Below, in pieces: positions 2,990-61,887 of a DNA stretch of 64,000 nt. The notes under the pieces are model-generated. The model ran no database searches, had not been told where the DNA came from, and saw only the letters and a list, made by a program, of their open reading frames with translations. Origin of the DNA: Gongronella butleri. Its lineage: Eukaryota > Mucoromycota > Mucoromycetes > Mucorales > Cunninghamellaceae. Location of the stretch: positions 62,001 to 126,000 of the forward strand of contig JAIWZP010000046.1 in the NCBI GenBank assembly GCA_025201375.1, written 5' to 3'. The position numbers were made by a program, and so were the translations under genes. Every line of letters starts with the position of its first letter. Position 1 is the stretch's first letter.

Positions 2990-5200
2990 AAAGCCGATGC
3001 GCAACATTTATACACTTGCAGCAATCGATCAAATATTTCAAAGCCAAATTTCTCGATAACGTACAGGGTATCCACGGCAAACTTGCAAAGTTGCAATGAA
3101 AAAAATGCAGAATTTGATTCTCTGTCAAATGGAATCAGTTTCATTGGCGTGCGACCCACTGTAAACTAGTAGCGAAATTCGAGTTTTAGAATTTGATTTT
3201 GATCGCCTTTTCCTCACGATCCGTCAAGTCGACCCTCGATTTTTATTGCAGATTTGCTTACGAAGAGGGGGTCAGTGCATCTAATGATGTGAATCTCAAA
3301 GAGCTGTTGTGTATGTTGCCAAACAGATTTGGATTTCTGGCTGACAGCTTGAACCTCTCAAAGCGGGGGACCCTACAGATGTATTTTGGCCTGACCAACT
3401 TTTTTTTTCAAGAATTTGAAAAAAATTCATTCCGCCTCCAAGACTCATTGCAGAGCCACGAAATTTTCCCACCCATATGATTTGGCCTCTCTCTTTTCAT
3501 AAAAAATTAAAACCCCGATATCGAACGGCTGGTTCGACGAGTAACTTGACATTGCTGAAAATTTGGCTGTAGCGCGTTTTTTAGAAAATCATTTCGCGGT
3601 GAAATCGTGCTTCAATCAGTGCGAAAATTTACAACGTGGACGTGGATTTGAGTCTTTTTCCAGGAAAAAGTTGAAAACTGGGGGTCGGTCAGGCTGTTGT
3701 TGAGGCAGTCGCGAATATCACGAAAGTCTGCAATTTCAATGTGAACGGCAAAAACAAGGGTTGAATCATTGTCGAAAAATGCCGTTTGATGATTTTCCGC
3801 GTGTTTCGTTTCAAAAGAATCAGAGGTCAACCAGTCGAAGTTGTCGACAATTTTGAAAATGTGGCAATTTTTCATCGATTTTCCCAAATCCAATATTAAA
3901 AATCACAAACTATGGTCGGATCGCCTTCAAAACTCTTTCATTAGGCCATTTTGTTGCGTCTTTTTTCAACATCGCGTTGAAAACCAGAGGTCCATTGAGT
4001 TGTTGTGCAGATAAATCCAAGATATCGACATTTTTTTCACAAATAATATAACAATGTCTTGCCAATTACAGTATTATTCGATCGCAGTGAAATTGCATTG
4101 TTCAAATTAGACATGCTCAAACGACATTTCTGGAATGTTTGTGTGCCCGATATGTGACCTTTGTATGCTTGTGAAAGCCGCTCAAACATTGCATAAATTT
4201 TCAACCTCGATGTTCTCGGCAACAAATTAGACAACACTCACGGAGCTTTTAATGTGTCGAAAGCATCTGTTGAATCTCTATCGAATGAGTCCTGCAGTTT
4301 CACCGATGGATGGCTAAAACTCGCCGAGAAAGTTCACTTTTTCATCAAAATCTTTGATTGCGATTTGTTCGACAACGGTCTAGTCGACCCCCGATTTTTA
4401 TTGCAGTTTTGATAACAAATAGGGGGGCAAAGCATCCAATGGGATGACCTGCAGGGCGCTAGCTTTGGTTTTAATTTTTGCATCGGTCATTTCACCCGGC
4501 TGCAACCCACCACAGCACACAAAAAAATGCAAAATAAAAAAAATAAAAAAACTACAGAAAAATAAAAATTCCATGCAATCCACGCACTTAATTTGGCTTG
4601 TCAAACCTTAAATTTTTGCAAAAAAAACCTTGACCAAAGTAGGCACTTTTTCTCAGTCGATCGCCGTTCATGCGTCACTCTTTGGACTTTTTTCTTCAGT
4701 TGTGGCGATTTGCCATTTTGTCTGCTAATAGCAAATTGTCGGGTTTGCCTGTTTGGGATGCATTGATCATGCGGAGTTCGAAATTTCCCAAATTTGGCAC
4801 TTTCTGAGATTGAAATGTGTGACCCCTGAGTGACCCCTGAATTTTTTAAAAGTGGTCGTAGCGCTTTGGGGGTTAAGCTTTTTTGTTGTAAATTTTGCGC
4901 TGAATTCGATGTGGCTATTTTTGAGCGGGGTCAACCCTGCAGATGGACAGATGAATGCAAAATAGTAAAAATAGGAGGTTTTTTTTTGGCAATTTCGAGT
5001 GCAAAAAAAATCGGGCGGATCGGTCTTAAGCACCATGCCATAGTTTATGCCGTGACGCAAGTTTCATTGGCGGGCAAGCAGGCTGTAAAATTTTTTCTGG
5101 AGGCACAGCAGGCCGGCAAAGTCCGAAAAACACGTTCTGTGGTTTTAAAATGTAAATGTGTACGTTTTTGTGCCTTGTAGCGCGCTGCTTTAGGCATCGA
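2990..5200 (+). repeat. Dispersed repeat family 1, copies A and B
   Basis: Two head-to-tail, diverged units: B (about 2990-3480) and A (about 3950-5200), separated by a weaker related stretch. Family copies C (34480-35900) and D (60370-61720) share the order of landmarks: CTTGCAGCAATCGATCAAA-like start, a CCCGATTTTTATTGCAG block, TTTGCATCGGTCATTTCAC, AAAATTCCATGCAATC, TGTGACCCCTGAGTGACCCC, and AAGTGGTCGTAGCGCTTTGG. The minus strand of the last block is open in all copies, but stops and indels differ, so coding is not supported. Type of element unknown. Confidence 0.65.
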
Positions 5201-32811: not shown

Positions 32812-34149
32812 ATGTACCCCACAGTCGATCAAGCCAAGCGCGACGAAATTCAGGCATACCTGCTGAAAGGCTACAATATCAGCAAAACAGTGGAAAAATG
32901 CAAGGTTAGCTGTACCGTTGTCCAGGCCGAGCGACGCAAGCTCAATCTCACCTTGCCTACCTCCAAGTTTGAATCGTGCAGCGTTGGCACTGTCAACAAA
33001 ATTAAAAGGCTTCTCCGCGGAGGGCAATCAATGGCATATGTTGCAAAAGTGTGTGGTCTTCACCGGTCAACAATCAAAGCATATCAGCTGAAATACGACC
33101 TTCCCCCTGGACGGCCGCGCAACGTACCTGTGAGCGACGAAACGAGGGAAAAAATCAAGCAGCTGCTTCTTGACGGCATGTCAATCTACAAGGCGCGAAA
33201 AGTATGCAAAGTTTCAACGGATGTCGCTCGAGAAGTGGCTTTTTTCAACGATATTCCTTGCCATTTGAAGCCTTGTGACGAGAAGACCGTTGAAAAGATC
33301 CAAAAGCAGATCATCAGTGGCAAAACGCCTCACGAAATCGCGAAGGAACACGGCGTCTCGGCTGTCTTTGTCCGATTGGTGAAAAAAAAGTACAATATTC
33401 GGATACCCACCAACATTGGCGTGCCAATCAGTGATGAAAAAGTCGAGCATGTCAAGAAATGCCTTGAGGAGGGCATGCCAGCCATCACAGCAGCGAAATC
33501 GTGCGGTATTTGCATGTCGACAGTCACCAATATCGCCAACAAACTCAACATTCCTCTCAAGTTTGCAAAAAAGCCCAACATCACGCCGTCTGAGAAAGAG
33601 GAAATGAAAAAACGACTCGAAGCTGGCGAGACCTGCGTAAATGTGGCTGCAGCCCTTGGCCTCTCCCCGTCCAGTGTATACAACTTCAAAAAGCGAAACA
33701 AAATCATCAGTCCGCCAAAGCCCCGTGCAATCCCTGTGCCTCACTTGCGCAAACCATTACGCGCACGTATAAATATGGAAGACAAGCTCAAGATCAAGAA
33801 CCTCCTCGAACGCTTGCCAAGCACTTACGTGGCGGGGATCACTGGCTACCCACAATGGACAGTGAACAAGATTAAAAAGGACTACCAAATACCCACCCTG
33901 CCAAAGCCATCCGTGCCCTTCCGCAGGTTTGTAAAGATCAAGCAACTCATGGCCAGTGGTGAGGATCCATACAGAGTGGCAAACTCGTGCCGCATTAGCG
34001 TGCAGATGTTAGAACGCCTGAAAACGGAATATGAAGAGGTTTTGTCGCTTATCGAGGAGCAGCAGCAGGATTCCAAGAGGGCGCTTGGCACCACACCCTT
34101 GAAGCGCATCGAATTTTTGGACGAGATTCCTTTTTGCGTGCTTCTTTGA
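32812..34149 (+). CDS. Protein of eight tandem helix-turn-helix units
   Basis: One exon, 445 residues from the ATG at 32812, preceded by a T/C-rich leader; earlier in-frame starts are not ATG. The whole protein is built from eight related units of about 50 residues with starts near 4, 55, 105, 154, 204, 256, 318 and 368. Each unit is a charged helix ending in a Gly turn (LLKGYN, LLRGGQ, LLLDGM, IISGKT, LEEGMP, LEAGET, and MASGED in the last), then an HTH with an Ala-x-x-Cys core (AKVCGLHRSTI, ARKVCKVSTDV, AKSCGICMSTV) and a basic third helix, closed by an Ile-Pro linker. This is the shape of Hin/resolvase-type HTHs, used here as a ladder with no catalytic domain. It should bind a long DNA stretch. 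It lies between repeat zones. It may be a host regulator or a domesticated element protein; I cannot name a family. Confidence 0.8.
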   Translation: MYPTVDQAKRDEIQAYLLKGYNISKTVEKCKVSCTVVQAERRKLNLTLPTSKFESCSVGTVNKIKRLLRGGQSMAYVAKVCGLHRSTIKAYQLKYDLPPGRPRNVPVSDETREKIKQLLLDGMSIYKARKVCKVSTDVAREVAFFNDIPCHLKPCDEKTVEKIQKQIISGKTPHEIAKEHGVSAVFVRLVKKKYNIRIPTNIGVPISDEKVEHVKKCLEEGMPAITAAKSCGICMSTVTNIANKLNIPLKFAKKPNITPSEKEEMKKRLEAGETCVNVAAALGLSPSSVYNFKKRNKIISPPKPRAIPVPHLRKPLRARINMEDKLKIKNLLERLPSTYVAGITGYPQWTVNKIKKDYQIPTLPKPSVPFRRFVKIKQLMASGEDPYRVANSCRISVQMLERLKTEYEEVLSLIEEQQQDSKRALGTTPLKRIEFLDEIPFCVLL

Positions 34150-34179: not shown

Positions 34180-34196
34180 TTTTTTTAAAAAATTCA

Positions 34197-34233
34197 TATC
34201 ATATCATATCATATGGCATATCATAATATCATA
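34197..34233. repeat. Nested TA-TCA-TA array
   Basis: Reads as TA units spaced by TCA: three consecutive TA-TCA steps, then TA-TGGCA-TA, TCA, TA, A, TA, TCA, TA. The same 7-bp TATCATA or its complement TATGATA recurs near 34566, 35985, 36033, 36239, 36262, 36320, 36360, 36404 and 36460. Confidence 0.6.
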
Positions 34234-34792: not shown

Positions 34793-34824
34793 TACTGTAC
34801 TGTACTGTACTGTACAGTACAGTA
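34793..34824. repeat. Footprint array of six units
   Basis: Seven TA dinucleotides separated by CTG four times and then CAG twice, with no other base in between. CTG and CAG are complements, so the array is a near-perfect inverted repeat able to form a hairpin. Confidence 0.85.
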
Positions 34825-34949
34825 ATGCTGACCGCTACAGACCGTAACTCCCTAGGTGGTGGATCGGTTCCAAAATTAGCCATTAATAGTAATTTTGGCA
34901 CATTGATTCATACTGTAAATACAGTAGTATTTGCTGCTCGAGAACGGCC

Positions 34950-35005
34950 TACTGTACACTACCCGTACAGTACAACAGTACCGTACTGTACAGTACTGTA
35001 CAGTA
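34950..35005. repeat. Footprint array of ten units inside repeat copy C
   Basis: Eleven TA dinucleotides separated mostly by CTG or CAG, with CAC, CCG, CCCG and CAACAG as variant spacers. The 56-bp array stands exactly where copy A of the repeat has the single TA at 4381-4382 (context ACGGTC-TA-GTCGAC). Confidence 0.85.
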
Positions 35006-35995
35006 GTCAATCCCCGATTTTTTTATTCCAGAAGATTTACTAGCAAATACCACCGGTAATAGCGGGCAAAGAAGCATCTACTGTAATGGGGTGACTTGCG
35101 GTGCGCTACGTAGCTTGGATTTTATAAACATTTTGCATCGGTCATTTCACCAACCTGCAGCCTACTACTGTACTGTACTCAGCGCAGACAAATGTGCAAA
35201 ATAAAAAGTAAAAAATAATAAAAAAATAAAAATTCCATGCAATCCACCACCTTCGTTTGGAAGTGTCAAACCTTAAATTTTTGCAAAAAAAATCTTGCTC
35301 AAAGTAGGCAACTTTCTCAGTCGATCATCGCCGTTCATGCGTCACTCTTTGGACATTTTTCTTAGTTTTGAGGCGACCTGCCATTTTGTCTGCCAATAGC
35401 AAATTGTCGGAATTACCTGTCTGGAATGCATTGATCACTCGGAGTTAGAAATTCTCCAAATTTGGCATTTTCTGAGACTGAAATGTGTGACCCCTGATTG
35501 ACCCCTGAATTTTTCAAAAGTGGTCGTAGCGCTTTGGGGGTTTAAGCTTTTTTGTTGCAAGTTTTGCGGTGAACGCGATGCGGTTAATTTGGAGCGGGGT
35601 CGACCATGCAGATGACGAGACGAATGAAAAATAGGACAAATATCTGGTTTTTGACATTTTCCAGTCCAAAAAAAATCGGGCGGGTCCGTCTTGAGCACTG
35701 GGCCGTAGGTTAAGACGTGGCGCATTTTTCATTAGCGGCCAAGTATGCTGTAAAAAAATTTCTGGAGGCACAGCTAGCCGGGAAAGTCCGAAAAACACGT
35801 TCTTTGATTTTTATAAGGTGAATGTGTAGTTGTGTACGAGTTTGTGCATTGTAGCGCGTTGCTTGGTGCACGCATTGTGGCATTGATGTGATGGCACGCG
35901 TCAGATGATCCTGTCTAGAATTGTATCATATTAAGATTGAAAATGGAGCGATCAACATCGCATTTGCGTGTAAAATCCATCAAATATGATATCAT

Positions 35996-58292: not shown

Positions 58293-58320
58293 TACAGTAT
58301 ACAGTAAGTACAGTACTGTA
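58293..58320. repeat. Footprint array of four units
   Basis: TACAGTA, TACAGTA, AG, then TA-CAG-TA-CTG-TA. Lies at the 5' border of the readable recombinase remnant. Confidence 0.75.
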
Positions 58321-59275: not shown

Positions 59276-61887
59276 CTTGCTCCTCGTCGTATGAATTAGA
59301 CTTTGAATTGGCCTCAATGCCGCCCCCTTTTTTTCGCGCATTGGCACGCGCATGCAACCTACTTATTAAATTCGTCTCTGCGGGGTCTGACGCGCATAAC
59401 CTTCTTATTCACAATTCTCACGCTGATGATCATGACACCACACGACGGCCAGATTAGACTTTTCTTATTTTTTTACATTTCAGCAGCTGCTGTCAAACCA
59501 AAAAATGATGATACATTATCTCAGGTGGGGAAAGGCCCAAAAAATGTTGAGCGGGGGGACTCCCACAAAAAAGAGTGAAATGGCTTACCTCGTCCCAAAT
59601 GATGAACTTTGTTGCATCGATCATCAAGCTCGAGCAACATTCTTGGCGGCTACTAACAAAGAAAACAGACCAAAGGCGCGATTTCTCGCGAAAAGTAAAA
59701 GAAAGCAGGAAAGAAAAAAAGAGACCGCGGCGGCGGGCTAAAAGGGGGCCTATGTTGAATTGTGTGATATAAAGTAAGAATTGGGCAATGCCATTGGCCT
59801 TTTGAGTACACTTGGCTTTGCGTTCTTGATGCTTTGACAGACGTTCTAGAGGTAATTGATGATTCTAAATCGCATGGTGAAGTCTAAAATGCACGTCAGA
59901 TTGCTGGATTTTGAGCACTTAGCGATTTGCGTCGATTTCGCCCTGTCATTGCAGTTTCTGCTCTAATACAAGTGCCTCAAAAATCGCTCAATTCGTAATT
60001 CTGTTCCGCGTTGCCGATGTAAAATTTGGTTTAGAATCGAATAAAGTTCTCACACGATGTCCGTTAACTTAATAAAATTTCGAGATAATCGCACTTTACG
60101 CGATTTTATGCCACTTTTTTGGCCGTGGGCGGCGGCAAAGGCGCAATTATCAAGTGTTTTTACTAAACGAGCTTGGCTCGAAAGTAACACCATTCGATTC
60201 CAAATCAAATTTTACATCCAGGGGCAACGCGTTAGTTCATCCCAGCGCACTCCTGGGCGCTCAGCAGAAGAGATTAAAGCCAAAATGCAGCTGCCCAATT
60301 CTTAATTTATATCACACAATTTAATGTAGGCCCAAAGTCAGCCATTATGAAATTTTGGCACGTCGATTCATAAAGAAACGTCAAAAACCAGTGGGTGATT
60401 AAGCTGTTGTTGACGATTTTTAAAATAAAGTTTGGCATTTTTAGCATGATTTTCACCAATCCAGTCTTAAGGACCCCAAACCATGGATACGAACCTACAC
60501 ATCAAGTTATTTTGGGGCGTTATTTTGCTACAAACTCTTAAAAACCAAAGGTCGGCTTGGCCGTTATGCAGATGAATCCAAAATGTCGCTATTTGCACAA
60601 ATTTAGCACAGAGTCTCGAAATATCTTGTGGTTCGCGGTGAAAATACAGTAGCAACGGTCGAAAGAGACAAACACGGATGTCATTTCTGAATTGTTTGCT
60701 CGCCCGATGGACGAACTTTGCACGCTTGCAAAAGTCGATCAAACATTGGATTAAATTTCAGACTCACTTTTCTCGACAACCGGGAACACAACCCAAGGTG
60801 CTTTTGACGTGTCAAATGCAACTGCTGATTCTCTGTCAAATGACGTAAGTTTCACCGCGATCTGATCAAAACTGACAGAGAAAACACCTTTTTTCGACAA
60901 TTTCTTAAGTGGCGATTTGCTCGATAATAACGGTCTAATAAACTTGTGATTTTTGTTTCAGTTTTACTAACAAATAGGGGGTGAAAGAATCTAATGGGAT
61001 GACTTATTACAGCGCGCTAGCTTGGGTTTAACCTTTTTGCATCGATCATTTCACAGCCTGCAGCCTGCAGCCCACTCTGCGCACAAAAATGTGCAAAATA
61101 AAAAAATAAAAATTCCATGCAATCAAAACGTAACGTAATTTGGAAGTTTCAAACTTTAATTTTTTGTAAAAAAAAATCGCACCAATGAAGGCAGGTTTCT
61201 CTGTCGATCGCCTTTCATGCGTTACTCTTTGGGCATTTTTCTCAAGATGGGGCGCTCTGCCATTTTGTGCGCAAATAGCAAATTGTCAGACTTACCTGTT
61301 TGGGGTGCATTGATCATTCGGAGTTCGAAATTTTCCAAAATTGGCATTTTCTGAGATTGAAATGTGTGACCCCTGAGTGACCCCTGAATTTTTCAAAAGT
61401 GGTCGTAGCGCTTTGGGGGTTTAAGCTTTTTGTTGTAAATTTTGCGCTGATTGCGATGCGGCTACTGTATTTTTGAGTGGGGTCGACCATGGAGATAACC
61501 AGATGAATGCAAAATAGTACAAAGAGGAGATGTTTGGCATTTTCGAGTTCAACAAAATTCGGGCGAGTTCGTCTTGAGCTCTGGGCCGAAGTTTATGCCA
61601 TGCCGCATTTTTCATGAGCGGGCAAGTACTGTAGGTTGTAAAAAATTCTGGAGGCACAGCAGGCCAGTAAAGTCCGAAAACATGCTTTTTGTTGTTGTTT
61701 TTCAGGCAAATGTACTGCATGATAATTCATGTGCAGTCTTGCCTTCGCAATCGTCAGCACAGCAAATCAAGACAACCGATGTCCGCACTCCGAAGTGCCG
61801 GTACAGTATTACAGTATTCACTCTAAATGGTGCATTTCTTCCTTGCTTTACATTTTTGTTTGCTTTTATTGTACTGTAGATGACAAT
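59276..61887. other. Gene-poor repeat zone
   Basis: 2.6 kb with no supported gene. It contains repeat family 1 copy D (60370-61720) and isolated TACWGTA strings at 60645, 61463, 61627, 61802, 61810 and 61872, the last ten bases from the stop of PEX14. Confidence 0.6.
60370..61720 (+). repeat. Dispersed repeat family 1, copy D
   Basis: Collinear with copies A and C. Footprint differences against copy A: GGC-TACTGTA-TTTTTGAG at 61463 where A has GGC-TA-TTTTTGAG (near 4912), and AAG-TACTGTA-GG at 61627 where copy C has AAG-TA-TG. Confidence 0.7.

Follow-up and report, generated by a model that had tools for sequence, protein, structure and literature searches.

TACWGTA arrays as probable excision footprints of Tc1-like transposons and possible preferred targets for their insertion

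The window, a 64-kb stretch of Gongronella butleri DNA forming part of contig C52, carries short arrays in which TA alternates with CTG or CAG (Table 1). The product of a zuotin-like gene in the window matches Gongronella butleri at 100% identity over 350 aa, with Hesseltinella vesiculosa following among the listed matches at 85%. The initial annotation had described three of these, at 34793-34824, 34950-35005 and 58293-58320, as pure; the first is, but the other two are interrupted. Among the 32 TAnnnTA classes in the window, CAG/CTG (TACWGTA) is the most abundant, with 47 units against a mean of 1.16 (maximum 7) in 200 dinucleotide-preserving shuffles, so that the suspected excess over shuffled controls was borne out. 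Adjacent pairs of units (TACNGTACNGTA) occur 11 times, against 0 in the shuffles. None of the 47 units is inside an ORF of at least 250 aa (counted from the first ATG), compared with 293 of the 1960 TAs. The second-ranking class is TCA/TGA, with 30 sites. A 445-aa ORF is present just upstream of the arrays (32812-34149); its product resembles repeated helix-turn-helix modules, and 12 HTH-type families match it, HTH_23 best.

Table 1. Candidate scar units and arrays in the window, and transposase coding regions elsewhere in the genome
Location	Feature	Triplets or domains
34194-34233	Imperfect TCATA array, second scar-like class	TCA (TA-TCA-TA)
34793-34824	Pure array of six units	TA, then CTG CTG CTG CTG CAG CAG with TA after each
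34911-34926	Two single units	CTG (34911-34917), CAG (34920-34926)
34950-34972	Two single units, no pure array	CTG (34950-34956), CAG (34966-34972)
34979-35005	Pure five-unit array	CCG CTG CAG CTG CAG
35079-35085	Lone unit	CTG
35166-35177	Array of two units	CTG CTG
58293-58320	Broken cluster	CAG, CAG, then a two-unit array CAG CTG (58309-58320)
L048:1789-2814	Transposase, above Pfam cut-offs	DDE_3 and Tc3-type HTH
L029:2342-3361	Transposase, above Pfam cut-offs	DDE_3 and Tc3-type HTH
L024:1078-2109	Transposase, above Pfam cut-offs	DDE_3 and Tc3-type HTH

The same units were counted across the whole genome (33.0 Mb in 110 contigs; one genome only). TACTGTA occurs 8154 + 8059 times (16213 on both strands), whereas the pattern read backwards occurs 3179 + 3176 times (6355). 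The difference widens with array length: 2059 against 92 for two consecutive units and 908 against 4 for three. For closer analysis we used a sample of 315 kb in 64 non-overlapping segments, which is biased in that the part outside the window was fetched for its arrays or transposases. In this sample 622 of the 710 arrays are one unit long, and 822 candidate scars of the CAG/CTG class were found along with 76 of the CCG/CGG class.

The initial annotation had looked to TA-target transposons with CAGT...ACTG ends as the source of the units, and Tc1-like elements with such ends are present in the genome, where DDE_3 matches 76 stretches and the pogo-type DDE_1 matches 3. Elements of ~1.33 kb (L040-L048) have the ends TA-CAGTG...CACTG-TA, and MITEs of ~1004-1006 bp are bounded by the same CAGTG...CACTG ends; some copies are identical over 1334 bp (full-length) or 1004 bp (MITE). 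The MITEs (L049-L078) are near-palindromic, with one copy 91% identical to its own reverse complement. The CAG-type end pattern has 117 matches genome-wide, and relatives with the end CCGTMCCCTA have 49. Ends of other relatives are CAGTGCCCTCC and CAGTGCCCTAGC (L079); L079 has CWG on both sides, and L080 has CTG outside one end. The terminal inverted repeats are bordered by TA on both sides, and the elements are 1.3-1.7 kb long. The transposase combines a DDE_3 catalytic domain with a Tc3-type HTH (HTH_Tnp_Tc3_2) and is of the DD34E type, with 34 residues, counted by eye in two translations, between the second and third residues of a triad that we take to be catalytic. A separate Tc1-like family of 1635 bp (L029-L039) has 212-bp inverted repeats and the ends CCGTGGC...GCCACGG. 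Since its 11 copies are about 99-100% identical, this family probably was active recently; 10 of the 11 copies are at plain TAs.

Six further DDE_3 matches of equal score (L016-L021, on C5, C6, C15, C54, C86 and C104) lie ~0.3-1.1 kb from a contig end in five cases and ~18 kb in on C54; clear terminal repeats were looked for around these six and none were seen, and the copies are perhaps subtelomeric. BLAST of the 34 fetched element rows and one 1635-bp copy against the window detected no element copy there, the only matches being two short ones within poly-A stretches.

The triplets of the CAG/CTG and CCG/CGG unit classes equal the end bases of the resident elements, and the CCG unit in the array at 34979-35005 is consistent with a scar of the CCG-ended relatives. 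CCG/CGG scars are fewer than the copies would suggest (76 against 822 CAG/CTG scars in the sample, with 49 against 117 matched ends). TATCATA/TATGATA forms a second scar-like class, with 30 occurrences in the window against 1.8 expected. It is nested with CWG units, and no source of TATSATA scars was found among the listed TA-flanked inverted repeats of the 315-kb sample.

Repeat copies, mostly about 75-85% identical in the pairs behind the five-base steps, served in place of strains. All-against-all comparison of the 64 segments gave 1926 alignments with 2239 clean gaps, where keeping a gap required at least 8 of 10 matching bases to either side and the absence of another gap nearby; gaps were merged by position in the longer copy, and an event seen in two copies may count twice. 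The exact form TA to TA-nnn-TA was observed in 53 of the 104 five-base gaps, with the triplet CAG/CTG in 38, TCA/TGA in 7, CCG/CGG in 6 and another in 2. TA framing was less frequent among shorter gaps (three-base, 14/216; four-base, 15/123) and longer ones (six-base, 1/51; seven-base, 1/27; eight-base, 3/33; nine-base, 5/24; ten-base, 7/29, several of which are two nested units; eleven-base, 0/31; twelve-base, 2/7). Five-base gaps differ in framing from the pooled four-, six-, seven- and eight-base gaps at Fisher p 4e-17. At one site in the 1635-bp family, which is also an example of one event counted twice among the gaps, TA is found in 20 of the 22 repeat arms and TACAGTA in the other two, each from a different one of the 11 copies; because 20 of the 22 read TA, the unit is most simply taken as a gain.

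The matching elements, the TA-framed five-base steps and the mixed orientation of the units support the initial annotation in reading the units as excision footprints of Tc1-like transposons, as far as can be judged from comparing copies within this genome. The absence of CAGT...ACTG elements, and of length changes at single TA sites, had been named as evidence against that reading; such elements exist, and five-base steps at single TAs were found between repeat copies. The consensus footprints of Sleeping Beauty are reported to be TACAGTA and TACTGTA (PMC4378557), and the TA target and putative three-base footprint of the elements here resemble those of Sleeping Beauty and other Tc1-like elements.

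A point that the initial annotation missed is that almost all of the extant copies examined are flanked by a scar unit on either side. C-N-G lies flush outside the TA in 96 of the 100 CAG-ended rows listed (of 117 matches) and at 48 of 49 CCG-ended ends, all 49 having been used; the end-pattern searches required a first base other than C, and some ends therefore went unmatched. Both sides are C-N-G in 35 of 35 paired CAG-ended copies, among the matches listed, and in 16 of 17 paired CCG-ended copies. In an overlapping set of fetched copies, 33 after dropping one of the 34 rows that joined the ends of two elements, both sides are CNG in 31; the two exceptions lack CNG on one side and have GATTG there. 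CNG-TA-CNG (CNGTACNG) makes up about 0.5% of TAs (4928 sites among ~1.01 million, the total being extrapolated from the window) and by itself is not enriched, as the backwards pattern occurs 14936 times. The 1635-bp family serves as a control from this genome: 1 of its 22 ends has CNG, and none of its 11 copies has it on both sides.

The initial annotation had proposed that repeated hits at TAs, each creating new TA targets, would be enough to grow the arrays. This proposal fails quantitatively: a simulation of 17000 random TA hits gave 268 pairs and 2 triples, against the 2059 and 908 observed. A two-parameter growth model, which ignores chance matches and decay, gave 1955 pairs and 907 triples when TAs beside one unit were favoured ~5-fold and TAs between two units ~100-fold.

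Even these weights place most insertions at plain TAs, where most scars lie, yet almost no extant copies of the CAG and CCG families were seen there. The extant copies (51 of 52 pairs with CNG on both sides, among the matches listed) are thus far choosier than the scar record, and no CAG-ended family that uses plain TAs turned up among the families fetched. Possible reasons for this tension are that present families are more specific than older ones were, a longer residence in arrays, a promiscuous relative that was not seen, or carriage of the outer bases by the element itself, considered below. Single CTG scars have A before them at a frequency of 0.43 and T after them at 0.37, against 0.29 and 0.29 at other TAnnnTA, although units adjoining CNG were removed for these counts, which itself lowers G and C at those positions. 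This lean toward A and T is closer to the preference for an AT palindrome described for ZB, SB and Bari (PMC7913693) and would fit a conventional source.

We consider it probable that the arrays are footprints of CAG-ended Tc1-like elements that prefer to insert at their own scars, in a self-reinforcing loop. Under this proposal, cut-and-paste transposons with CAG...CTG ends, or CCG...CGG ends in the relatives, would duplicate the TA upon insertion. After excision the two TAs would remain with the three terminal bases of the element between them, in one orientation or the other, and the site would read TACWGTA or TACSGTA. Elements and MITEs would then integrate preferentially at a TA with C-N-G on both sides, that is, between two adjacent scars, and each cycle of insertion and excision inside an array would add one unit and one preferred TA, a positive feedback. 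The choice of CNG-TA-CNG sites would be made by the transposase itself, which may recognise the flanking CWG through its resemblance to the transposon's own end (TA-CAG). That CWG-TA-CWG mimics the ends, with scars being the family's own preferred target, each visit strengthening the landing pad, insertions channelled into non-coding arrays and the genome keeping a branching, countable log of transposition, is a reading toward which we lean only slightly.

The placement of extant copies between units could also reflect retention. Insertion would be unchoosy, copies at CNG-TA-CNG would be excised less often, and copies at plain TAs would leave and give rise to single scars, which would account both for the promiscuous spread of single scars and for the strict placement of extant copies. 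We consider this unlikely as the whole explanation. Arrays of at least three units need completed cycles at interior TAs, and there are 908 triples against 2 expected from random hits; insertions therefore also come and go more often at interior sites. Retention bias and target choice may nonetheless operate together.

Somewhat less likely still is that the outer CWG-TA belongs to the mobile unit, so that insertion at a plain TA would bring a unit on each side. A single step would then explain why copies are flanked on both sides and why single scars are so frequent at plain TAs. One site (C26:115681) is without the unit in 8 of 9 alignments of repeat copies spanning it (72-79% identical), although the informative repeat copies across junctions are mostly 64-80% identical, and most repeat pairs are old. 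Among the matches listed, 86 of the 127 counted ends (68%, about two thirds) have just one outward unit, exceeding the 56% predicted by uniform choice of interior TAs (p 0.007). The left outer triplet, in element orientation, also is biased: CTG in 23 of 33 copies, including 7 of 7 in one full-length group, with 7 CAG, 2 CCG and 1 TTG (CTG over CAG, p 0.005).

The right triplet is unbiased (16 CTG, 14 CAG, 2 CCG and 1 CAA; n = 33). Against carriage of the outer bases, copies identical over 1334 or 1004 bp differ in their outer triplets, CCG included, whereas inherited ends would have been copied. In the four copies identical over 1334 bp (on C28, C39, C48 and C56), the right triplets are CAG, CCG, CAG and CTG, and the left triplet is always CTG; four MITEs identical over 1004 bp have CTG, CTG, CTG and CAG on the left and CAG, CTG, CTG and CTG on the right, the right-hand CAG being the end of an abutting element. 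Of 16 difference-free pairs, 12 share the left triplet and 6 share the right one. Triplet sharing among such pairs is at p 0.175 in a permutation over the 33 copies, and near-identical copies have outer bases in common no more often than under permutation (p 0.16-0.24). In addition, 41 of the 127 ends have at least two outward units, among the matches listed, which is above the plain-TA expectation, abutting copies have one TA in common, and the inner end type is used at plain TAs by the 1635-bp family. An extended terminal repeat was thus disfavoured, as the outer bases vary among difference-free copies. Inheritance of the outer bases with the element is unneeded, and on the right side difference-free copies carry different triplets, which excludes strict inheritance there; the CTG bias on the left could reflect a one-sided target preference or partial carry-over.

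Growth of an (ACTGT)n pentanucleotide microsatellite by replication slippage is very improbable. The units are tandem and five bases long, and TRF reports period-5 arrays. Slippage duplicates a neighbour, and adjacent units are expected to be mostly alike. Genome-wide, 733 neighbouring units have the same orientation and 880 the opposite one, a slight excess of opposites (p 0.0003); since opposite neighbours are at least as common as same ones, slippage is contradicted. In the sample, units one, two and three steps apart agree in 78 of 162, 48 of 93 and 24 of 44 cases. We rejected slippage on these orientation counts and on the five-base steps at single TA sites, and most arrays in the sample are just one unit long. 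The units resemble simple microsatellites in being short tandem repeats and differ from them in their mixed orientation, single-site steps and the elements nested inside. The initial annotation was right both that orientations are mixed and that a plain ACTGT microsatellite does not suffice. A host regulatory or binding site incidentally targeted by transposons, in line with the location of all 47 window units outside ORFs of at least 250 aa, is just as improbable, as the TA-framed five-base steps fall into three triplet classes, two of which match resident element ends, and mixed orientation and variable unit number are unlike a constrained site.

For ZB, as for SB and Bari, a preference for the AT palindrome ATATATAT has been reported (PMC7913693), whereas the extant copies here are at CWG-TA-CWG, mostly inside footprint arrays. 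The target TA is preceded by G and followed by C in most extant CAG- and CCG-ended copies, and these do not follow a Sleeping Beauty-like preference for AT-rich palindromes. Bacterial IS30 is described as having two modes of targeting, inserting either at hot spots or adjacent to its own inverted repeats (PMC9333248). The likeness is one of logic and not of ancestry, and IS30 moves by copy-out-paste-in and targets its own ends, whereas the putative targets here are excision scars. Coral CMITEs are MITEs reported in tandem arrays (PMC2872659); these are piggyBac-like, use TTAA and form arrays of whole elements, whereas the arrays here would be of footprints. In the titles and abstract beginnings of the PMC open subset, we found nothing on footprint arrays or footprint-targeted integration.

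If true, the proposed loop would offer, as an object of study, a sequence-specific Tc1 integrase that reads its own footprint, and, for a compact genome, would amount to a safe-haven strategy. Short tandem repeats might originate by the same route, their unit counts and orientations then recording the history of transposition. Even without targeting, this genome would hold thousands of readable Tc1 scars.

A further short repeat was noted in the window. An 11-base unit, GTGACCCCTGA (or, shifted, TGACCCCTGAT), occurs as tandem pairs at 4819-4840, 35488-35508 and 61366-61387, and there were 31 eleven-base gaps between repeat copies.
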